Source: a virus. Taken from it: 22,139 nucleotides of DNA. The notes beneath the pieces are model-generated. The model saw only the letters and a program-made list of their open reading frames with translations, made no database searches and was not told the origin of the DNA. The translations under genes were made by a program, and so were the position numbers. Shown one piece after another: positions 7,773 through 22,085 of the stretch (positions within the stretch are counted from its first letter, which is position 1; every line of letters starts with the position of its first letter). The stretch lies in the IMG/VR virus record IMGVR_UViG_3300034198_007456, positions 1 to 22,139 of that record; one strand, written 5' to 3'.

Positions 7773-9005
7773 TTAGGTTAGGGGTGTTAGGGATGTTGCT
7801 TGGTCAATTCCGTAGAACCAATTACCAGTTATCGTAGTCGAAGAGTCCATCACATAAGAAGACGTGACGTCATCGTAACTCCAAACCGATGGCGACCAAG
7901 TGCCGCCGTAAATTATTCTGTACATAGCAGATGGCTCTAACTTAGGGAAGGATTGCATCACAATTTTAGGAGTGCCATCCGTCACTTCAACATAGCCAAT
8001 TTGGTGCCTAAAAAGGGTGCTAGTTGTATTGGGAGGATTAAACCAGTTTCCAGACATTGGCGTAGATGATTTCTTTAACTCAACCTTAGTTATGGAATCG
8101 GCAATCCATTCATACCCTTCCTCGTCTGGTGCTATGTTTCCTGCACCAATGGTAGCGGCATGAGTAAATTCTAGGAAGAAATAAGAAGTCTCTGTAATTT
8201 CGAAATAAGGATTTGATTCTTCAACACTGCTTACGGGAACGTCATTTATGACGGGGGTGTAGAACGTGTACTGATTAGTCCATGGAGACTCTGGAACCCA
8301 ACTACGGTATGATACCCCAGAATACTGATTCCAATCAACTATGTTGTCGTACTTGAATTTAACCCTAAACGTTCCAGCGGTACCAGATTCAGTAAGGTAA
8401 ATGTCGTAAAATCTGTTCGTTGTTGATTCCTGAACTACAACATCGCTTTTCCATAGTTGCAAAAGATGCCAGTCCTTTATCCCCCTACCAGTGCTCTTCT
8501 TGATTACTGCTATCTTTATGTCTTTATAGTCCAAATCGTCTTCGTTAACCCAACTAAGGAACCACACATTTTCAGTCGAATGCAGGACCAGATAGATGCT
8601 GTCTGGTGCACCTCCTCCTATCAATTCTGTCTCGTCCCAGTCCGCACAACCCTTCTCGGCGTCTATGTATTCTCCATTATCCTCATTAGTTCTGCCAAAG
8701 TCAGGCCTTTTGAGGATAACCGCCGACCCACTCTTTGCTCCAGTGGCAAATGGCTTGGCGTTCATCTTGGTTCTGTTCTGACTAAGGCTACGCTGGGACA
8801 TGCCGTGCGTAGTGACGGCTATTGACATGGCAATTTTCTCTGGGAAACGACGTGGTTGCCACTCTTCGGTGTATACGGCTTTCTTGTCTGCAATAATTCC
8901 AAGGTAGCAGAACAACTTAGAGCCCTTGCTCCACTCAACCTGCCAAGGATGGTGAACCGAATAAGGGGCCGTGGGTACGACCACACTGCCCCTTCGGTAA
9001 AACAT
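7773..9005 (-). CDS. Tail-region beta-rich protein of unknown function
   Basis: This 410-aa protein is not recognised. It is rich in Trp, Tyr, Ser, Thr and Val, with alternating strand-like segments and few helices, as expected for a phage tail or receptor-contact protein. There is no catalytic triad, collagen repeat or membrane segment. Its ATG overlaps the fibre stop as TAATG, with GAGGA four bases before the start. It is thus coupled to the collagen-like fibre upstream and followed one base later by the nozzle candidate. Base composition is AT-rich (17 G or C in the 60 bases from 8161), unlike the capsid gene (36 of 60 from 12361). Rapid exchange or relaxed constraint in a host-range gene would explain this. 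A tail-spike, fibre-attachment or hub role is inferred from position. Confidence 0.75.
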   Translation of the reverse strand: MFYRRGSVVVPTAPYSVHHPWQVEWSKGSKLFCYLGIIADKKAVYTEEWQPRRFPEKIAMSIAVTTHGMSQRSLSQNRTKMNAKPFATGAKSGSAVILKRPDFGRTNEDNGEYIDAEKGCADWDETELIGGGAPDSIYLVLHSTENVWFLSWVNEDDLDYKDIKIAVIKKSTGRGIKDWHLLQLWKSDVVVQESTTNRFYDIYLTESGTAGTFRVKFKYDNIVDWNQYSGVSYRSWVPESPWTNQYTFYTPVINDVPVSSVEESNPYFEITETSYFFLEFTHAATIGAGNIAPDEEGYEWIADSITKVELKKSSTPMSGNWFNPPNTTSTLFRHQIGYVEVTDGTPKIVMQSFPKLEPSAMYRIIYGGTWSPSVWSYDDVTSSYVMDSSTTITGNWFYGIDQATSLTPLT

Positions 9006-10276
9006 TAGGTCCTCGCTGGAACGTAGTATGTCGTCCCGCTGACTACTACGGCTAATTCATACGGGTAGTGAGCAGAGTCATAACCCCCAACGGAGAATCC
9101 GCTACCGTTAGCCTGTTGTGAGACTCCAGAAATTAGGGGGGTTGGAAGTGCCGCCCAAGTCTGATTTTGTCTAACGTAATAATTGTAATCATTTGGAGAT
9201 TCTGAGGCAAATGACGCTCCACTAAGCACCCTACTGCCGCCAGATGTGTTGACGACAAGAGCAGCACCATCCGAAATTCCAGTAGTTATGGTATTAAGCA
9301 CTTCCCCAGAAGTGACCGCACCATCGGCACCGTCAGCCCCATCGGCCCCATCGGCACCATCAGCACCGTCGGCCCCAGCAAGTCCATTAAGTCTATTCCA
9401 GTTGGCAGTATCAACGTCTGGAGTAGGCGGGCTACCGATTAATGCAATCGCCTGTAAAGCAACATACAAGATACTGTCGTAGGTCACAACTTCACCTTGA
9501 GCATAGGCGGTAAAAGCACTCCAAGCACCGACAAAAACAAATCCAACCCCGTCAGCACCGTCAGCCCCGTCAGCACCGTCGGCCCCATCAGCCCCGTCGG
9601 CACCGTCGGCACCATTACCCGTTGCCGCCGTTGTCATGGTAGTATTGTCAGGGAAGGTTAAGCCAGTAGGCGTTACCTTCATGTGGCTAGCACCATCGTA
9701 AACATCAAGACCGTTATACTCAACCGTGGTTGCTTTTGTGTTGTCGGAAGTAAGTTCGACCCCAAGACCCCAGCCGCCCAACTCGACGTCAGAAGTTGCA
9801 TCACTGTTTATCACAATGTTCTGGTGTGATACTTCCGTCCCCTTGCTTGTGGCACTATCCCATACACGCAGAGTCGTTCCAGCAAGGCTGTCCAAGTAAA
9901 GCGGACGAGGGGTAACGCTATTTTGTTCGGTCGTCGTTAGCCAACCCGCTTGCCAATTGAACTCGTAGCCAATCGAGCAGACTAGGCTGATGCCGTAGTT
10001 GCCCCCTCGGCTAGTGTCGAAGTTGCCCTTCGAGATGTACTGACCAGAAGTACCGTCAAAGACGATGCCACCCGTCATAGTGCCACCAGCAAGCGGAAGG
10101 TAAGAGCCACCACCGCCACCACCAGCACCAATTGCCGTATCTACTTCATCAATGGAGTAGACGTCTAGGTTAGCCCTAGCATCCGAAACGTCCTGAAGGT
10201 CGCTAAGATTGTTAGCCACCTTGAGGGCCGAAGGGTCAGTTTCAGCACCCCCTCCGCCTCCATTGTAGATAGGCAT
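9005..10276 (-). CDS. Collagen-like tail fibre protein
   Basis: This 423-aa protein has several hallmarks of a phage tail fibre. An N-terminal Gly patch is followed by NLSDLQDVSDARANLDV (residues 23-39), a common fibre helix motif. YLPLAGGTMTGGI (around 59-71) and the strand GLTFPDNTTMTTAATG just before the repeats are also typical of fibres. Two pure Gly-Ala-Asp collagen-like blocks (7 and 6 repeats, around residues 222-242 and 301-318) flank a roughly 55-residue module with the pattern W..FTAYAQGEVVTYDSILYVA...W, like carbohydrate-binding CBM5/12 modules. The C-terminal 100 residues are the probable tip. It should trimerise and bind a cell-surface ligand. Its ATG overlaps the upstream stop and its stop overlaps the downstream start (both TAATG). 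Confidence 0.88.
   Translation of the reverse strand: MPIYNGGGGGAETDPSALKVANNLSDLQDVSDARANLDVYSIDEVDTAIGAGGGGGGSYLPLAGGTMTGGIVFDGTSGQYISKGNFDTSRGGNYGISLVCSIGYEFNWQAGWLTTTEQNSVTPRPLYLDSLAGTTLRVWDSATSKGTEVSHQNIVINSDATSDVELGGWGLGVELTSDNTKATTVEYNGLDVYDGASHMKVTPTGLTFPDNTTMTTAATGNGADGADGADGADGADGADGADGVGFVFVGAWSAFTAYAQGEVVTYDSILYVALQAIALIGSPPTPDVDTANWNRLNGLAGADGADGADGADGADGADGAVTSGEVLNTITTGISDGAALVVNTSGGSRVLSGASFASESPNDYNYYVRQNQTWAALPTPLISGVSQQANGSGFSVGGYDSAHYPYELAVVVSGTTYYVPART
9323..9376 (-). repeat. Collagen-like repeat, six 9-base GAD units
   Basis: Six tandem 9-base units each encode Gly-Ala-Asp. The units differ only at synonymous third positions (Gly GGT/GGG, Ala GCC/GCT, Asp GAC/GAT), so they are not identical at DNA level. 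This is the distal block in the fibre gene and precedes the C-terminal tip. Tandem units of this kind can expand or contract by slippage. Confidence 0.95.
9551..9613 (-). repeat. Collagen-like repeat, seven 9-base GAD units
   Basis: Seven tandem 9-base units each encode Gly-Ala-Asp, again with only synonymous variation. This is the proximal block in the fibre, separated from the distal block by the Trp/Tyr-rich binding-module-like segment. The Asp in the third position replaces the hydroxyproline of animal collagen. Bacterial and phage collagens commonly use charged residues there. Confidence 0.95.
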
Positions 10277-11724: not shown

Positions 11725-12096
11725 TTAAGAAAGTATACGGCCTTTGGCATCTACGAGGCCCTTGGTGCCGTTGACCAGCAGGGTGGTGTTCTCCGCTTTG
11801 GAGTTCACCCTGCACTCGGGGTTATCACGAAGGAATTCCTTCATGAACCCATCGTCACGCCAGCAAGCGTATCCCATTCTCATCCCCCAGTAGTGGTAGG
11901 ACTCCTCTGGAATACGGGCCGACATTTGACCCAGACCTTCAACGTGACGGTGTTGAAGTTGGTTAAATTGGGCCATCGCCTTTTTAGTAGCGACGGCTTG
12001 AGCCTTACGGAGGGCCCACCCCCGACGGAACTCGGCTACCATGTCTGGTATGAGTTCGTCAGGGATGGATTCGTGGATGGATTCAATGCCAGCCAC
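11725..12096 (-). CDS. Small conserved-looking protein between capsid and adaptor genes
   Basis: This 123-aa protein starts at GTG 12096-12094, 12 bases after the capsid stop (TAATCGGGTACGGACGTG). Residues 1-50 are helical and charged (PDMVAEFRRGWALRKAQAVATKKAM). A central Trp/Tyr/Cys region (YHYWGMRMGYACWRDDGFMKEFLRDNPECRV) follows, then a short C-terminal part. The two Cys and the Trp-rich patch are notable. There is no recognisable domain. In phages of this order the gene after the capsid often encodes a head-completion or decoration protein, but the helical charged N-terminus does not match decoration proteins well. Treated as hypothetical structural. Confidence 0.75.
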   Translation of the reverse strand: MAGIESIHESIPDELIPDMVAEFRRGWALRKAQAVATKKAMAQFNQLQHRHVEGLGQMSARIPEESYHYWGMRMGYACWRDDGFMKEFLRDNPECRVNSKAENTTLLVNGTKGLVDAKGRILS

Positions 12097-12108
12097 GTCC
12101 GTACCCGA

Positions 12109-13515
12109 TTAGGCGTTGTTCGTCTTGTAGTCGAACATCCCGAACGTCAGAGGACTGTGGACCAGCAGAGCGGCCATAGCCTCCATCATACGGCGAGGAC
12201 CACCACCGTTTTCGGTGAGTTCTCGGACCTGAGCGATGTTGCCGCCGTAGCGGATTTCGAGCATGTCCCACGGAATCACGAAGCCCTTGCACTTGGCGTT
12301 ATCGAGGTGCAGAGACGCACGATACTTGGCCAAGGTGAGAGCGGCGAGACGGTCAGCGGCAGACGACGAGGCGGCAGTGACAACAAGGTTGTCGCTCAGC
12401 AGGGCGTTGTTAGCCGTGGACAGGACGACGGCCTTCTTGGCCTCAAGGTTACCCGCAGACACCGTGATGGTACCAGAGGAGTTACCGTCAGAGGTGATGG
12501 CCTTGACTCGGTTAGATTCCGTAGTGGTGACGCCGTCGTACAACTTGAACGAAGAGACGCTGGAAGCAACGGTCTCAATGATAGTGTACGGGTTAACGCC
12601 AGCATGAAGGAACTGAGACGGGATGAGGGCCAACTTACCGAAGTCACCCTCGAAGTAGTCGACCGAGGCCGAGATAGTGTCGGCGTTGGCGTCTCGGGTG
12701 GAGCGGATACCAGTGGTGGACGAAGGGCCAGCGGGCGAACGGCTGGTATAAACCAGTTCCGTGAACTGACGCTTGAGTTTCGTGCCGACAACGGCTTCGT
12801 GGTTCTTGAACTGACCAGTCTGCTCGTAAACGGAGGTCATCAGGTCCTGAACGGTATTCTCGTTGAGGGTGCTGACGTCCGTACCAGTGCCGACGATGGA
12901 CGATTCAGGGGTGACGAAGTTAACGTCGATATCACGGATGGACTGCGACTGAGTGCCGTACTTGTCGGCATTGGTCGTGGCGGTAGCCTTGTCCTTCTTC
13001 AGCCAAGCCGTAAGGCAACGGGTGCGATACGGGGTAGTGCCATCATCGATGGCAGGCATGATATCAGAAGTGAACGTGATTTCCATCGAACGCTTGAGGT
13101 CGATGGTAGCCTTAGCCAACTGACGGCTCAGTTCGTTCTGAACACCAGCGATGTTCAGGATATCCTGAGTGAGGTTGGAGACGTGCACCGCTCTGCGGAA
13201 CAAGTGGATGTTATTTTCGACTTCAGTGCGGTAACCAATGGTGTACTGCTTGAAGGCGTCGTTGGTGGAAGGGTTCGTCGGGTCGACGTCCTTGCCATCA
13301 AGGATGCCGAGTTCGACGGACGGCTCGGGGTTGCGGTCGACCTGCCAGCGGAAAGTGGTATTTCCGGGCTTAGAGCCACGCTTAGCCATCGAGGTGATGG
13401 GCGTTTCCTTAGCGTCGACGTTGGTGATGAGGTCAGAGAGTTCTTCACGGATACCAACACGGGCACCTTGAAGCGGACGCTGATTTTGGAACTGGTTCTC
13501 GAATAGTGAGGCCAT
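12109..13515 (-). CDS. Major capsid protein, HK97 fold, DUF5309/SU10-type
   Basis: This 468-aa protein builds the icosahedral shell. Its N-terminal pattern GIREELSDLITNVDAKETPITS (residues 21-42) followed by a RWQVD strand matches the DUF5309 capsid family (phage SU10 type). That family starts with a short arm, a conserved R-E-L-S-D helix and an ETP loop. The remainder has the mixed long-helix and beta character of HK97-fold proteins, with a helix rich in Leu, Arg and Lys around residues 130-150 (ELSRQLAKATIDLKRSMEITF). It follows the scaffold by 18 bases and precedes small head genes. No SD precedes the ATG. There is no N-terminal delta domain or protease gene nearby, so a separate scaffold protein, not a delta domain, is expected to shape the prohead. 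Local G+C is high. Confidence 0.9.
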   Translation of the reverse strand: MASLFENQFQNQRPLQGARVGIREELSDLITNVDAKETPITSMAKRGSKPGNTTFRWQVDRNPEPSVELGILDGKDVDPTNPSTNDAFKQYTIGYRTEVENNIHLFRRAVHVSNLTQDILNIAGVQNELSRQLAKATIDLKRSMEITFTSDIMPAIDDGTTPYRTRCLTAWLKKDKATATTNADKYGTQSQSIRDIDVNFVTPESSIVGTGTDVSTLNENTVQDLMTSVYEQTGQFKNHEAVVGTKLKRQFTELVYTSRSPAGPSSTTGIRSTRDANADTISASVDYFEGDFGKLALIPSQFLHAGVNPYTIIETVASSVSSFKLYDGVTTTESNRVKAITSDGNSSGTITVSAGNLEAKKAVVLSTANNALLSDNLVVTAASSSAADRLAALTLAKYRASLHLDNAKCKGFVIPWDMLEIRYGGNIAQVRELTENGGGPRRMMEAMAALLVHSPLTFGMFDYKTNNA

Positions 13516-14869: not shown

Positions 14870-17107
14870 TTAGAGCATTCCAGTCCCTTGCATGGGCGGA
14901 GGCACCCCGCCAGCCTGTTGCTGTTCCTCTGGGGCGACCTGTTGTTGTTCCTGCTGAGATTCCTGCATCTCTCCTTGAATCTGTTCGGACGCTGGAGTGA
15001 CTCCGATTCTGCCGATTTCCTTGTTCTTTTGCTGGTCGATAGACATTTGCAGGTTCTTCGAATAGTTCTGGAGCAAGATTTGGAAGATTCTGTCTCCCTG
15101 AGCCGCTTGCTGGGCCTTGGGGTTCTTCTGAAGGATTTCCTGAAGATAACGCATCTTCGATTCGGCGGTAGGGTCGTTTTCCACGTACATGGCCTCGTTC
15201 CCGAGCATCATCATGCCCACGTCGTTGATAACGTCCTTGTACAATTTCTGGGAAGCCGTCGTTTGGTCAATGACGAGTTCTCTAGCCGCATCTGGGCTAA
15301 TGGCCTCGACGACCAACTTGACCAACTTATTGCGGTCAATGACGCCGCCGCTGTCGAGCGGAACGACCGTCTCGACGATAGCCTTGAGTTTCTCCATGAC
15401 GAACTCTGGGTCAGTATCTCTGACGTCAAAGCGAACGTTGAAGTCGTACTGGCTGTGAATATCCGACATGTTCTGCTTCAGAGGGGCATTGGTGATGCGA
15501 GTCACTTCTTCCTCTGGCATGAACTGGAGGCACAGGGAGAACATCTGCTTGTACACCTGAGTCCAGAACTGGAGCCAGTTGTTCACCTGCAACTGTTGGA
15601 GCATTCTTACCTTGTTAGGGTCAATTTCCTCTCCGACGATGAAGCCGTAGAAGTTGCCAAGGTTGATTTCAATCTGCTTGATAATCTGGATGGCGTACTC
15701 GGCTTTACCCTGAGGTGGGTCCATCCAAGTGTAGTCATCCTTCGTCGAAACTGGGAGCACTTGTCCCGGAGCAATCCTGTTCAAAGCACCAACTCTCTTG
15801 ACCACTTTGACAGGCGGCATGATTTCAAGAGCGGTACGGTCACGGAAGGCGTCGTGCTGGGCTTTAACTTCGTCCTGCTCGGTCTTGCTGATTTCAGGAA
15901 TGCCTCTGCTTTCAGTCACCTGACGACGAGACATTTCAAAACGAATCGGGATAAACGGATACTCGCCGTGGGCGTAGTTAAGCATCTCTTGGATGGCATA
16001 CAGGTCATTCCCGACGTGAGGAGAAAACACCGTGTAGTAGATGGAAGGAATGTCGTTTTCGTCCAACTGGCGGTAGTAGGCCCAAACAACTTCAATGAGG
16101 TGGTCGCCTCTTAGGATGTTGGAGTTAAGTACCGTGGTGGTGGGAACGAGGTTGGGGTCGTTAAAGTAGTAATGGTTACCCATCGTCTTCGAAGCGGCTT
16201 CAATGAACTCAGGACTCCAGTTGGCATCTTTGTTCATCGAGCGTAACTCCACTTCCGTCATGTACTGGCGTCTAAAGATTACTCTGGCTTGCTGGAGGTC
16301 GCTGGTTTCTGGAGGGAAGCAGACTTCGTCATACGGCTTGAGGGCCGTAATCTTTGGCAAGTTCTTCTCAATGTAGACTTCTTCCAGTTCACCTTGACCT
16401 TCTTCACGCATCTTTCGGACGAACTTACGTAGGTCCTTGACCTTCATCTGTGGCATCTGCTGGCGGCACAGTTCGATGGCGTAGTCCTCCTTGGACTCAT
16501 TCATGATGGCTTGGATAAGCATCGAGGCACTGGTGATGCCCATCTGCTGTTCCTGCTCGGCGACGCCGTACAGTTCTTCCATGGTCATGGTCTGGCGGCG
16601 AAGGCCAATCTTTCTGTCCCAAGTAATCTGGGCACACGACCAACCATAGGTAAGCATATAGTCGGCTACCAATTCGGCCTCCCTGTGGAACTCGGACCTC
16701 AACTTGGTCTCAACCAACCACCGCATCAGGCTGGTGGCAGAGGAGGCGGCGAGGGTGTCGCCAATCTCCGTACCGCCCACCTTCAAGGTGCTGGAGTTGA
16801 AGGCGGTCATCAGTAGAGCCTTCTGGTCTCTGATAAGTCTGTCGATAAGGCGGCAACGAACGTCGGACGCACCTTCAAACGGGAAGGCTGGGTCGCCGTC
16901 TGGTCTGGCCCAAGAATGCTTTTTGCCGTCGTCGGTCTGGCCAGCCCATCGGGCGTAGCGAACGTCGTCAGCCCACACCATCTTCGACACCATGGTGCCG
17001 AAGTAGGCCGAACGCTGGTACTCGACTAAGAGTCTGGCGATATCTGGTTTGTCCTCATGGTACGCCAAAGGGTCCTTGAGGAATTGCTTGTCTTTAAACT
17101 TGCTCAT
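14870..17107 (-). CDS. Portal protein
   Basis: This 745-aa protein forms the dodecameric DNA-entry ring at one capsid vertex. The length is close to that of P22-like portals and far above the roughly 500-aa siphophage type. Supporting patterns are the N-terminal PAFPFEGASDVRCRLIDRL (around residues 74-92), which is common in portals of this group, and the segment with the sequence ESRGIPEISKTEQDE just beyond the middle. A long C-terminal helical part ends in a Gln/Glu-rich tail (residues from about 710), resembling a flexible barrel extension. It overlaps the 66-aa gene by 14 bases and lies downstream of the large terminase, the usual order. No SD precedes its ATG. Confidence 0.92.
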   Translation of the reverse strand: MSKFKDKQFLKDPLAYHEDKPDIARLLVEYQRSAYFGTMVSKMVWADDVRYARWAGQTDDGKKHSWARPDGDPAFPFEGASDVRCRLIDRLIRDQKALLMTAFNSSTLKVGGTEIGDTLAASSATSLMRWLVETKLRSEFHREAELVADYMLTYGWSCAQITWDRKIGLRRQTMTMEELYGVAEQEQQMGITSASMLIQAIMNESKEDYAIELCRQQMPQMKVKDLRKFVRKMREEGQGELEEVYIEKNLPKITALKPYDEVCFPPETSDLQQARVIFRRQYMTEVELRSMNKDANWSPEFIEAASKTMGNHYYFNDPNLVPTTTVLNSNILRGDHLIEVVWAYYRQLDENDIPSIYYTVFSPHVGNDLYAIQEMLNYAHGEYPFIPIRFEMSRRQVTESRGIPEISKTEQDEVKAQHDAFRDRTALEIMPPVKVVKRVGALNRIAPGQVLPVSTKDDYTWMDPPQGKAEYAIQIIKQIEINLGNFYGFIVGEEIDPNKVRMLQQLQVNNWLQFWTQVYKQMFSLCLQFMPEEEVTRITNAPLKQNMSDIHSQYDFNVRFDVRDTDPEFVMEKLKAIVETVVPLDSGGVIDRNKLVKLVVEAISPDAARELVIDQTTASQKLYKDVINDVGMMMLGNEAMYVENDPTAESKMRYLQEILQKNPKAQQAAQGDRIFQILLQNYSKNLQMSIDQQKNKEIGRIGVTPASEQIQGEMQESQQEQQQVAPEEQQQAGGVPPPMQGTGML

Positions 17108-17294
17108 TGATGGAAGGGGTGGAGTTGTTGGAAAGGAATGCCTTGATATCGTCTCGGTAGAACATGTTCTGCTTCCCTTGCGTCTTGAAGATACGAAGGA
17201 CGCCTTGTCTGCGGAGTCGGATTAAGGTTGTTTTGGATAGACCGAAGAGCCTTGCGGCTTCGGCTAGTCTTAGGAGTGGCGGGGTCTGGTTCAT
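17094..17294 (-). CDS. Small winged-helix DNA-binding protein (MerR/excisionase-like HTH_17)
   Basis: This 66-aa protein is nearly all one DNA-binding domain: helix-turn-helix at residues 8-30 (LRLAEAARLFGLSKTTLIRLRRQG), then a wing with the diagnostic ...MFYRDDIKAFL (residues 44-54). This is the HTH_17 or excisionase layout. It starts one base after the large terminase stop and overlaps the portal by 14 bases, so it is made with the packaging proteins and is very unlikely to be chance. Such domains act as excisionases, transcription regulators or DNA-packaging recognition proteins. No integrase is present in the window. It could be a compact regulator of late genes or a small-terminase-like subunit. 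Function is not determinable from sequence, though the fold is clear. Confidence 0.85.
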   Translation of the reverse strand: MNQTPPLLRLAEAARLFGLSKTTLIRLRRQGVLRIFKTQGKQNMFYRDDIKAFLSNNSTPSINEQV

Positions 17295-17295
17295 G

Positions 17296-18924
17296 TTAAT
17301 AAGAGCCTCCGAATAGTGGCTTATTTGAGTTCTTTTCGGCGTACTCTGGTTGCATGACCGCTATGTAGCGTAGGGCGTCGATAGGGTCCTTGCTGGAGCC
17401 CTTTTCGCCGTCAGTACCAGTCCACTCACGCAAGCACCACATGAGGTTCTTGCATTCTTCGGAGATAAAAAGTTTGGGTTGGTTGACCGTAGAGACGGGT
17501 TCGTTCTGGTCGTAGGAGAACCAATCGTTGATAACGGAGATGCCTTCCTCCAGCCTTAGACCAGCGGCGGGGGTAAAGTACATTGGGTTCGGCTCCTCAT
17601 CGAGCAATTGAAGGAGCGTTGTGCCACCCTCCTTGTTGATGACTGGGGAGCCAGCGGCTCTAGGGTCGATGAATCTTTCGGTAATTACCTCCTCGCCCTC
17701 CAGTTCTTTGATGTGGTCTTTGATTTCATTAAGACCCATGCCAGCACCCTGCTTTTGGGCTGGGCCAGCCCGACCATCAGGTTTCTCGGATGGCAATGCC
17801 CATTCGCCCATGCTTATGTCTGGCCATTCACGGTAGACGTACTTGTTGCCATCCTTGTCTACCCTCATCCAAAGCATGAACCAGTTTCTGGCACCAGCGG
17901 GGTCGACCGCCATATAGTTGGTGCCTTCTTTGGGGATTTGGTCCTTGGGTATGATGTTTGGCTCTCCGAACCTTGGGAACTGTGAACCCGCAAGGGATTC
18001 AGCCCATCCATACGCACGAATCTTTATTTCGTAAGGACCTCTCCCACGAAGTGCTAACTTGATTTGTTCAAATGGAGAGTATCTATTCAGGACCGAATGA
18101 AACCAGATGACATTAGCGGACCCCTTGGAGCACTCTGCGATGTAGGGCATGTGTCCTTTAGGGATACTTGGCACATTCTGTGTATCTGGAAGGAGGTCTG
18201 CAAAGAGAGACTTCTTGATACGGCAACCCGCTACGTAATCTTTTACTACTGGGGTAAACCCAGTGATTGGGGTAAAGGTGAGTATCATCTTTCCCGAACG
18301 GGTGACTAGTCGGTAGCGAAGCGTCTCAATCCAGTCCTGCGGAACTAGTTCGTCGCACCAAATAAGGTCAGGTTCACCACCTTCGATGACCTTTTTCTCC
18401 TGACCGTAGTTCATGAAGAAGCACTGGCTTCGGTTTGGAAGGACGAAGGTGGCATCGGTATACCCGTTCTTCTGGGAGTACTGGATGTTGGTTACCTTAG
18501 TCTTTCGAGCGTTTTTGAACTCTGGCGGCATGTACTTCCAGATGACCGCCTGTTGCATTTGAATGGATGTTTGGCTTGTGGTGTGCAGGCACCAAACACG
18601 GCTGTTGGGTCGGGAGCACAACAGTTGCATTACTCTTTTTGCGGCATACTCGGTTTTGCCAGCACGGTTTCCCCCCATAATGAGCAACTCCGAACCACTC
18701 ATGAGTAATCTATCTGAGTCTGACCAACTCGTCGGTTCATACCCATGCCTGTAAGGGTCTTGAACCTCAGCCTGAATTTTTTCTTCTCGGCGGCGGATTA
18801 CCTCAACCGTAGCCTCCGTACCCATTGCACGGGCCATCTCAAGCACCTCATCCTCGCTAGGAAGGTGAATGATGGGATGCTTTGTTAGTTTCATCCCCGC
18901 CACGGTTACGGTGTCAGCGGACAT
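17296..18924 (-). CDS. terL: Terminase large subunit (ATPase and nuclease)
   Basis: This 542-aa protein drives DNA packaging and cuts the concatemer. The ATPase has Walker A GGNRAGKT (residues 84-91), Walker B DLIWCDE (186-192) and the coupling motif ILTFTPITG (214-222). The nuclease half has the three acidic positions expected of RNase H-fold terminases: Asp341 in MAVDPAG, Asp420 in RFIDPRA, and Asp513/Asp516 in KDPIDALRY. All key residues are present, so it should be active. The ATG overlaps the upstream stop (TAATG), preceded by the purine-rich GAGGAAGAGGAAGAG that encodes the upstream poly-Glu tail. It lies upstream of the HTH gene and portal. No small terminase is adjacent, which is unusual. 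Confidence 0.97.
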   Translation of the reverse strand: MSADTVTVAGMKLTKHPIIHLPSEDEVLEMARAMGTEATVEVIRRREEKIQAEVQDPYRHGYEPTSWSDSDRLLMSGSELLIMGGNRAGKTEYAAKRVMQLLCSRPNSRVWCLHTTSQTSIQMQQAVIWKYMPPEFKNARKTKVTNIQYSQKNGYTDATFVLPNRSQCFFMNYGQEKKVIEGGEPDLIWCDELVPQDWIETLRYRLVTRSGKMILTFTPITGFTPVVKDYVAGCRIKKSLFADLLPDTQNVPSIPKGHMPYIAECSKGSANVIWFHSVLNRYSPFEQIKLALRGRGPYEIKIRAYGWAESLAGSQFPRFGEPNIIPKDQIPKEGTNYMAVDPAGARNWFMLWMRVDKDGNKYVYREWPDISMGEWALPSEKPDGRAGPAQKQGAGMGLNEIKDHIKELEGEEVITERFIDPRAAGSPVINKEGGTTLLQLLDEEPNPMYFTPAAGLRLEEGISVINDWFSYDQNEPVSTVNQPKLFISEECKNLMWCLREWTGTDGEKGSSKDPIDALRYIAVMQPEYAEKNSNKPLFGGSY

Positions 18925-20322: not shown

Positions 20323-20493
20323 TTAGCACCACTTCTTACCTTTGTAGTTAGTGCGACCTGTCGACTTCTGCTCGCCCTTCATGGCTCGCTTGGGCATGGG
20401 TTGCTGGTACTCGGGTTCGGTCTTCATAATCTTTTCGCCCTTCTCGAAGTATTTCGATTCGGTCGATTCCTTGTCATTCTTTGGGTTCTTCAT
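20323..20493 (-). CDS. Small basic protein (56 aa)
   Basis: This 56-aa frame runs from ATG 20493-20491 to TAA 20325-20323. It is Lys/Glu-rich, with an N-terminus of MKNPKNDKESTESKYF and a C-terminus ending GRTNYKGKKWC. There is no membrane segment or known motif. The start overlaps the end of the 161-aa gene by 20 bases, and without this gene there would be a gap of 174 bases in a block that is otherwise nearly gapless. The leader has no good Shine-Dalgarno. Its reality rests on spacing and a plausible composition, not on homology. It is probably a minor nucleic-acid- or virion-associated protein. Confidence 0.6.
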   Translation of the reverse strand: MKNPKNDKESTESKYFEKGEKIMKTEPEYQQPMPKRAMKGEQKSTGRTNYKGKKWC

Positions 20494-20959
20494 GGTTCTT
20501 GGTTCTTTGGATTAGTTGATTAATTCGCAGGATGGAAGTTGGGCGATGTTCGCAAAAATAGCGACCACCACGATATTTAACCGCTATGGGCAATTGTGGT
20601 TTGAACGGGGTTGAGTCGAAAACGTTGCAAAAGGCCCGCTTTCCGTCTTCGAGCGTAATTTGCATTATCCGACGATTGGGGAAGCCGACCTTAAAAACGA
20701 CCGCCTTGAGGACTTCCTCCTTAGGCTTGTCTGCGGGGACAGCGACCTTCTCGCCGTCAACCAGACCAAATCGCTTAAATACCCTAACTTGCCCCTCTTC
20801 AGTTAAAGCGACTGGGCAGGTCTGAATCGGTCTGCTCCCCATTGGGATGCGTTCCCAGTCTCTGCCCTCTACGAGGTCGGTCTTGCGGAATGCCACCAGT
20901 TCGTCCTTGGGGACGCCCCATCGCTCGATGACCTCAGACTCCTTGAGTAGTTCAGTCAT
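20474..20959 (-). CDS. Putative DNA-binding protein with N-terminal HTH-like and C-terminal beta domain
   Basis: This 161-aa protein overlaps RusA by eight bases. Residues 1-65 look like a helix-turn-helix-like domain (LLKESEVIERWGVPKDELVAF...ALTEEGQVRVFKRFGL), resembling phage proteins that place a HTH beside a second domain. Residues 85-145 form a beta-rich domain (FPNRRIMQITLEDGKRAFCNV...YFCEHRPTSILR), the layout of a small OB-like or SH3-like fold often seen in phage nucleic-acid proteins. There is no catalytic motif. Coupled to the resolvase, it probably works on DNA, perhaps recombination or replication. I cannot name the family. Confidence 0.7.
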   Translation of the reverse strand: MTELLKESEVIERWGVPKDELVAFRKTDLVEGRDWERIPMGSRPIQTCPVALTEEGQVRVFKRFGLVDGEKVAVPADKPKEEVLKAVVFKVGFPNRRIMQITLEDGKRAFCNVFDSTPFKPQLPIAVKYRGGRYFCEHRPTSILRINQLIQRTKNHEEPKE

Positions 20960-21440
20960 TGGTCAAATGGATGCGGATGGCCTCGCAGTACTCGTCGTCA
21001 ATCCACGGGGCTGGCTTGATGAACACCCCTACGAAGGGACTGGAAGTGCGGAACTTCATGACCTTGCCAAAGACCACCTGAGAATCGTCATGCCAGAAGC
21101 CGAGGTCAGTCAAAGCATCGCACATGGACTTGGCTAGGTTGTCGAAGTCGGGCTTCGTCGTCATGGGGGCCGACTTGCCCTTGTCCGACTTGATTAACGG
21201 GAAACCGTAGTAGAGCGTTAGTTCAAGCGGGCCCTCGTACGGCTTGTCGGGGGCATGCTTCTTGGCCATCAACTTGAACTGCTCAATCCACCGCTTGATT
21301 TGAGAGTTGGCCATCTTACCGATAAATTGCCGTCCATCCCGAGTCTTAAGGATACGGAGGTCCGCTTGGTGCGTCGTCCGAATGGGAGGCATGTCCACCA
21401 AGAATCGGCGTTCAAAGTAATTGCTTCTATCCTCTTGCAT
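20952..21440 (-). CDS. rusA: RusA-family Holliday junction resolvase
   Basis: The protein is 162 aa from ATG 21440-21438; a TTG nine bases upstream would add three residues. It cuts four-way DNA junctions as a dimer and is used by phages to resolve branched DNA before packaging. The diagnostic motif is present: KPDFDNLAK (about residues 96-104), then a following Asp in CDALTDLG (108) and the DDSQV segment (118-122), which together give the Mg2+-binding acidic residues. The N-terminal strand FLVDMPPI also fits. It ends in a C-terminal strand typical of the family (VFIKPAP). It is the first gene of the minus-strand block and reads away from the plus-strand HTH gene. Confidence 0.93.
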   Translation of the reverse strand: MQEDRSNYFERRFLVDMPPIRTTHQADLRILKTRDGRQFIGKMANSQIKRWIEQFKLMAKKHAPDKPYEGPLELTLYYGFPLIKSDKGKSAPMTTKPDFDNLAKSMCDALTDLGFWHDDSQVVFGKVMKFRTSSPFVGVFIKPAPWIDDEYCEAIRIHLTND

Positions 21441-21441
21441 C

Positions 21442-21478
21442 GTTGACAACAGATGACCCCCATCTACGTTATGTCAAC
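21442..21478. promoter_or_regulatory. Face-to-face TTGACA boxes in the divergent start region
   Basis: A 7-base inverted repeat, GTTGACA at 21442-21448 and TGTCAAC at 21472-21478 with 23 bases between, places a consensus -35 TTGACA on each strand, each reading through the other. The plus-strand box has TACGTT 16 bases downstream as a poor -10. The minus-strand box has only weak -10 candidates. It could be overlapping divergent promoters or an operator for the HTH protein. The plus-strand ATGs at 21453 and 21471 lie within it, so a plus transcript from this box would begin near or after them. Confidence 0.4.
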
Positions 21479-22085
21479 CGTGGACAACGAACGATTAGAT
21501 ACCAACCCATCCTCGAACCATAACGCCACCCGTGTCTCCGCCGAACGGAAGCAACAGGTCGAGGACATGCTCAGGTCGGGTACACCCGTCCTAGAGGTAG
21601 CCAAGTTGGCTAAAATGTCCCCCAACAATGTGACGGCCATCAAGAAGACCATGCCAGAGTCCACGGGCCTCCAAGACGAGTTCAAGGCCACCACCGTCCG
21701 CAACCTGAAAGCCTTCGTCCAGAGGGCTTCCCAGAAACTGGTAGACGAACTGGACTCCCTCCACGTCTCGCAGGTCCCTATCGCCATGGGCATCGCCATA
21801 GACAAGATTCAGACCCTCCAAGACCAGCCACAGGCGGTCGTTGAGCATAGATTCAGTATCTCCCATGAAACGCTCGACTCCCTGCTCAAGTCGAAGGGCT
21901 TTAGCCCTGATGGGAAAAAATTCGACGTCATCGACCTAGACGTCAAGTCGACCAAGCCAGAAAGCACTCAGTCCTTCCTGTCGTGGGCTGAAGACCCTAA
22001 GTCTTTTTTGGGGAAAACAGTAGTAGATGTGAATCCGTCACAGGAAATCGACGTCTCGTCTCCTCGACCCCCCCCGCCCCCTTAA
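21453..22085 (+). CDS. Helix-turn-helix protein, candidate small terminase subunit
   Basis: This 210-aa protein is the only plus-strand gene. ATG 21453 and ATG 21471 (MSTVDNER) are both possible, with no Shine-Dalgarno for either. Residues 31-68 form a clear helix-turn-helix (ERKQQVEDMLRSGTPVLEVA...SPNNVTAIKK). A helical region follows (80-125) with the phrase VPIAMGIAIDKIQTL, then EHRFSISHETLDSLL (131-145). This HTH plus AIDK-type layout is often annotated as a small terminase or HTH protein in phages. The tail is disordered and ends in six prolines with one arginine. Its neighbours are RusA on the other strand and, beyond, terL about 2.5 kb away. No other small terminase is obvious. A transcription regulator is the main alternative. 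Confidence 0.75.
   Translation: MTPIYVMSTVDNERLDTNPSSNHNATRVSAERKQQVEDMLRSGTPVLEVAKLAKMSPNNVTAIKKTMPESTGLQDEFKATTVRNLKAFVQRASQKLVDELDSLHVSQVPIAMGIAIDKIQTLQDQPQAVVEHRFSISHETLDSLLKSKGFSPDGKKFDVIDLDVKSTKPESTQSFLSWAEDPKSFLGKTVVDVNPSQEIDVSSPRPPPPP

Follow-up and report, generated by a model that had tools for sequence, protein, structure and literature searches.

A conserved winged-helix mini-protein gene at the terL–portal junction of a phage lineage and its possible role as an accessory BldC-like regulator

The window, meaning the whole 22,139-nt stretch of viral DNA to whose numbering all positions refer, contains a small gene (the mini gene) at the junction of the genes for the large terminase (TerL) and the portal protein. 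The genes and features required for the following discussion are:

14870..17107, minus strand: portal protein gene; SU10_portal match under the cut-off (25.8 versus 30)
17094..17294, minus strand: mini gene at the terL–portal junction, encoding a 66-aa HTH_17/MerR-type winged helix
17296..18924, minus strand: terL, large terminase (PF03237, 34.4 bits; phrog_2, E 3e-17)
17306..17310, minus strand: GGAGG, Shine-Dalgarno-like motif, 11 nt before the mini gene ATG
20474..20959, minus strand: gene X, predicted winged helix with C-terminal domain; no Pfam match in the window copy
20952..21449, minus strand: RusA-like Holliday-junction resolvase (PF05866, 73.2 bits)
21471..22085, plus strand: gene P, likely small terminase (TerS), predicted HTH with helical hairpin

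The mini gene starts with ATG and comprises 66 codons. A single nucleotide separates the terL stop from its start, and its last 14 nt are shared with the beginning of portal. The initial annotation had described a 66-aa HTH domain with this gap and this overlap, in agreement with the coordinates and the HTH_17 match. Its wording that the protein is fused into the junction has to be corrected, since the gene is a separate open reading frame joined to neither terL nor portal.

The HTH_17 model (PF12728) matches the mini-protein with 46.5 bits (E 4.4e-12, cut-off 27), and both of two relatives tested also exceed the cut-off. The excise model TIGR01764 is matched above its cut-off by the window protein (31.6 versus 28.8 bits) and by neither of the two relatives (24.2 and 27.8 bits). 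Among the PHROG families, the excisionase and transcriptional regulator family phrog_66 was the best match (E 1.4e-8), next to a weak match to the TerS family phrog_57 (E 0.0017); across 24 mini-proteins the former was found in 24 and the latter, again weakly, in 5. AlphaFold2, run on 24 relatives, gave a mean pLDDT of 86.1 and about 95 over residues 11–50. The predicted fold is a confident MerR/excisionase winged helix (wHTH) followed by a low-confidence tail, with helices at residues 10–17, 21–29 and 47–57, strands at 35–37 and 43–46, 9 residues after the last helix and no second domain in the model. Profile comparison retrieved BldC (6amk, E 4e-5; 6ama, E 5e-4) and RdfS (E 0.0019), and BldC chains were top-ranked in a Foldseek search with the model. 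VIA gave Pukovnik Xis (4j2n, Z 8.8), BldC (Z 7.5) and RdfS (8dgl, Z 6.0) together with the packaging-linked entries 7lw0 (Z 7.6), 7lwr, 7lxs, gpNu1 (1j9i, Z 5.5) and Rpp (6hn7, Z 6.3). The closest solved relatives are Pukovnik Xis, a packaging-motor entry and BldC by structure, and BldC and RdfS by sequence; the structural matches do not discriminate, because MerR-type folds all match one another. A PADLOC match to mad1 (E 1.2e-7) was read as a common HTH domain and set aside. No match was obtained by tblastn of two mini-proteins against 50,697 phage records or by scanning cellular genomes with the mini-protein profile, and a literature search of limited scope met no paper on the gene.

Relatives were collected in four scans of viral contigs, many of them incomplete: two with TerL of the window's lineage, one led by the TerL of Phage C75C1 and one by TerL of a sister lineage. 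All 78 loci of the first scan that extend to the junction have the mini gene there (L044 and L068 end before it). Over both own-lineage scans, with repeats counted once and the window included, it occurs at the terL–portal junction in 114 of 133 contigs, and these 133 contain 114 distinct TerL sequences. It is present in all 75 contigs with a TerL at least 76% identical to that of the window and in 39 of the 58 with about 57–63% identity. The recurrence at the same junction that the initial annotation had proposed to look for is thus documented, and absence from close relatives, named there as grounds for rejection, was not encountered. Profile scores are bimodal, at least 72.5 where the gene is present and at most 8.2 where it is absent, the upper value being flattered because the profile was rebuilt from the positives. 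In the 19 negative contigs terL ends close to the start codon of portal, and no remnant of the mini gene was seen in the locus. Searched over whole records, Pfam HTH_17 gave nothing in any of 8 records without the mini gene. All 9 records carrying the gene were matched at E up to 0.01, 6 of them above the curated cut-off.

The sister lineage was reached via contig L275, whose TerL is 49% identical in the scan. Its portal gene directly adjoins terL, and the mini gene is absent from all 80 readable loci (L339 is too short). L275 itself (JAFMIZ010000069.1), which carries a related terL–portal pair, was binned with a Pedosphaera MAG, a weak hint at the host group of the phages. On a quick TerL tree of 66 ingroup rows the presence of the mini gene needs 5 changes, and 6 on a likewise quick tree with 14 sister-lineage rows added; the starred branches alone force 3–4. 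One gain and about five losses fit this distribution, in which counts alone cannot tell gain from loss. Owing to the several lineage losses and the absence from the whole sister lineage, we regard the mini gene as accessory and not as a core part of packaging.

Pooled pN/pS of the mini gene was 0.09 over 139 pairs (93 of the 114 sequences entered, 79 of them distinct), and the 18 computable pairwise dN/dS values range from 0.02 to 0.19. The mini gene is real and under strong purifying selection, which together with its recurrence in 114 of 133 contigs places it beyond chance. The sequences for pN/pS were chosen by a motif that fixes P5 and L7, and the residue counts given below were therefore taken from another count, over 85 distinct sequences.

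In 110 of 114 loci the mini gene begins between −1 and +5 nt relative to the terL stop. GGAGG was found upstream in 64 of 114, and none of the motifs sought in 35. In the window, GGAGG forms part of the last terL codons, GGA GGC. GGA accounts for 882 of the 4492 glycine codons in these terL genes and leads the terminal Gly-Gly pair of terL in 71 of 103 cases among the rows listed, the GGAGG and Gly-Gly counts not being independent because the rows are related. A terminal Gly-Gly occurs in 40 of 49 tree rows with the mini gene versus 4 of 17 without, a comparison that contains only 4 independent pairs. Since GGAGG is present in 19 of the 49 rows with the mini gene in this subset, the Shine-Dalgarno reading rests mainly on the close relatives of the window. 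The HTH_17 match, predicted fold, junction conservation, start spacing and selection all support the earlier proposal of a DNA-binding protein made in step with TerL.

The mini-protein had also been considered as an alternative small terminase. In PMC9611059, TerS is described as an N-terminal HTH with a helical-hairpin core and a protomer of 15–21 kDa. The mini-protein has the N-terminal HTH, and as modelled its 66 residues comprise neither a helical-hairpin oligomerisation core nor a protein of that size. Nor is the gene present throughout the lineage: 19 of the 133 contigs lack it, as do all 80 readable loci of the L275 lineage. In spite of an HTH adjoining terL and the phrog_57 match, it is very improbable that the mini-protein is itself TerS: gene P fits better, and phages without the mini gene still carry gene P. 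The suggested comparison with this plus-strand gene favours it by architecture, distribution and synteny.

The start codon of gene P is uncertain (its open reading frame opens at 21453, and a GTG at 21480 is also possible). Its model, of modest confidence (pLDDT 65.9, pTM 0.29), places HTH helices at residues 24–60 and a hairpin at 68–96/99–116. With this model, Foldseek gave no match at E below 0.35, and the best VIA matches (Z 6.2) are non-terminases, followed weakly by TerS of P74-26 (Z 5.4) and G20C (Z 5.2); because the fold searches are weak, it is architecture and synteny that support the TerS reading. Of 16 genomes or fragments compared, 15 contain gene P: all 10 that have the mini gene and 5 of the 6 that lack it, the remaining one (G027) being a 31.7-kb fragment. 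In the clade led by Phage C75C1, 50 of 66 loci have a relative of gene P that ends no more than 900 nt upstream of terL, the usual place of TerS, and in 27 of these 50 it abuts or overlaps terL. We conclude that gene P is probably the small terminase and that the mini-protein probably is not.

The slot between terL and portal was initially held to be normally empty or structural. It is indeed empty in the lineages without the mini gene, but in the C75C1 lineage it often holds a predicted winged helix. There, a homologue of gene X lies directly after terL (L256:3107-3490), whereas gene X of the window is found upstream of terL. A pattern sort over 70 readable loci of this clade gave 24 hits for the full form (wHTH and C-terminal domain) and 26 for the C-terminal part alone. 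By hhalign, the full slot form was related to gene X of the window at 96% (E 1e-9) and to the mini-protein at 38%, which is not secure. An origin of the mini-protein in gene X or in the slot wHTH is not supported by hhalign, which gave only 15% and 38%. Like the mini-protein, the C75C1 slot protein is a predicted wHTH encoded directly after terL; it comprises about 125 aa with an extra C-terminal domain, in contrast to the single wHTH of 66 aa. In L219 and L231 an extra open reading frame with an HNH-like motif, presumably a homing endonuclease, lies directly after terL. As the slot also holds these homing-endonuclease-like frames, insertions may be especially frequent there. Small DNA-binding genes recur in this slot across large lineages of uncultured phages.

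Among the 85 distinct mini-proteins, A13, T38 and G40 are invariant (85/85 each), followed by P5 (84/85), L7 (83/85), R28 (77/85) and R26 (63/85, with K in a further 15). In the alignment to BldC, L7, T38 and G40 correspond to the interface residues Leu11, Thr42 and Gly44, and R26 to the base-reading Arg30. According to PMC5859096, BldC binds direct repeats head-to-tail with these residues at the interface and Arg30 reading bases, and the G44E exchange abolishes binding; head-to-tail oligomers are likewise described for RdfS in PMC11963761. Because the most conserved residues match Leu11, Thr42 and Gly44 and, with less constancy, Arg30, the mini-protein is likely, as judged from sequence comparison, to bind DNA and to assemble head-to-tail. 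Other BldC positions are changed: that of Lys26 usually carries S, R or T and that of Trp31 usually L, T replaces Phe21 in 27 of 85, and Glu16 is not kept. The curated BldC model NF033787 gave 18.2 bits, below its cut-off of 77. BldC (6amk, 6ama) is a 68-residue single wHTH of the same fold and size, and the 66-aa mini-protein is similarly modelled without a dimerisation or effector domain. Unlike the phage protein, BldC is a host developmental regulator.

We favour, at close to an even chance, an accessory BldC-like regulator that is made with TerL, a stand-alone BldC/excisionase-type winged helix whose gene lies within the late gene run, coupled to terL and portal. This preference follows from the repeated loss and the lineage-restricted gain. 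The recognition helix with R26 and R28 would enter the major groove, the T38-x-G40 wing would contact the neighbouring protomer, and monomers would assemble head-to-tail on DNA in the manner of BldC. Late in infection the protein might then repress or reset phage or host promoters as a transcription regulator, and this regulation might follow how much of the packaging motor is produced. Against such a role, a regulator within the terL–portal gene pair is unusual, and the tight coupling to terL suits packaging equally.

Our scans revealed neither a target promoter nor an array of direct repeats for the mini-protein. Direct repeats with a period of 8–11 bp in non-coding DNA showed no clear excess in phages with the mini gene over those without it, a weak test because the non-coding set still shows codon periodicity. 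Scans for tandem repeats and promoters yielded no feature linked to the gene. At 21443-21477, where RusA and gene P start in opposite directions, an inverted repeat TTGACA-N23-TGTCAA lies between the two starts. Most of the aligned relatives retain it, at varying spacing, one subgroup having matching changes in both arms (TTGACCC/GGGTCAA), and it is a possible operator. A sigma-70 reading was dropped, since no −10 box was seen by eye. The repeat could not be tied to the mini gene, as G007 and G018 have the gene and showed no exact copy at gene P.

The coupling to terL also keeps a packaging cofactor under consideration, which we regard as possible and on balance unlikely. Here the mini-protein would be a stand-alone DNA-recognition module working with TerS (gene P) and TerL, either steering the motor like the wHTH of gpNu1 or pairing with TerS like Rpp. 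The start spacing, the GGAGG inside the last terL codons, the VIA matches to 7lw0, 7lwr, 7lxs, gpNu1 and Rpp, the weak phrog_57 matches and the other predicted wHTH protein in the C75C1 slot are consistent with it. About five lineage losses, the consistent absence from the L275 lineage with its abutting terL and portal, and the cross-matching of all MerR-type folds argue against it. The gpNu1 DNA-binding domain of lambda terminase and Rpp are MerR-like wHTHs tied to packaging with a fold like that of the mini-protein; as modelled, the mini-protein lacks a further domain with which to dimerise or contact TerL, and its gene is found downstream of terL in phages that have another TerS candidate. 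For the satellite protein Rpp, PMC6739421 shows that such folds can join TerS. Rather improbable is a split of packaging recognition, in which the TerL-coupled mini-protein would polymerise on phage DNA like BldC and mark it or hand it to TerL alongside an ordinary TerS. If true, this would be a separate DNA-reading packaging factor that was gained once and lost repeatedly.

There is very little to expect from an excisionase (recombination directionality factor) of a temperate phage. The TIGR01764 score, the phrog_66 matches in all 24 proteins and the Z score of Pukovnik Xis point in this direction, and Pukovnik Xis and RdfS share the wHTH of the HTH_17 group; the mini-protein is without the extra N-terminal helix of RdfS described in PMC11963761. 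The gene lies among packaging genes, however, and unlike in excisionase systems no partner integrase was found in a search that covered tyrosine integrases: Phage_integrase (PF00589) is matched in 0 of 33 records of relatives, which are possibly fragments, with a positive control in 14 of 14 genomes. In lambda, the TerL and portal genes flank that of gpW, a protein of comparable size. The chance is similarly slight that such a slot holds a head-completion or connector protein with a reused winged-helix fold and lost DNA binding, as conservation is among the highest at the basic recognition-helix and wing residues and lineages without the mini gene have no replacement at the junction. If the mini-protein guides packaging, part of DNA recognition would lie outside TerS; if it regulates transcription, promoter control would be tied to motor synthesis. 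Because the gene is naturally present in some phages and absent from others at a single junction, both the packaging and the regulator idea are testable.

Further observations concern the structural genes. A predicted fibre-like protein at 9005-10276 on the minus strand contains collagen-like Gly-Ala-Asp repeats, which 9-bp tandem repeats encode. Near the end of the structural gene run, very long open reading frames were found in two relatives, one of 2560 codons (G017 21798-29480, L167) and one of 3691 codons (G018 32180-43255, L170-L171). In the window, a 537-codon frame at 11893-13506 on the plus strand runs antisense to the major head protein gene and is probably a shadow frame of codon bias.
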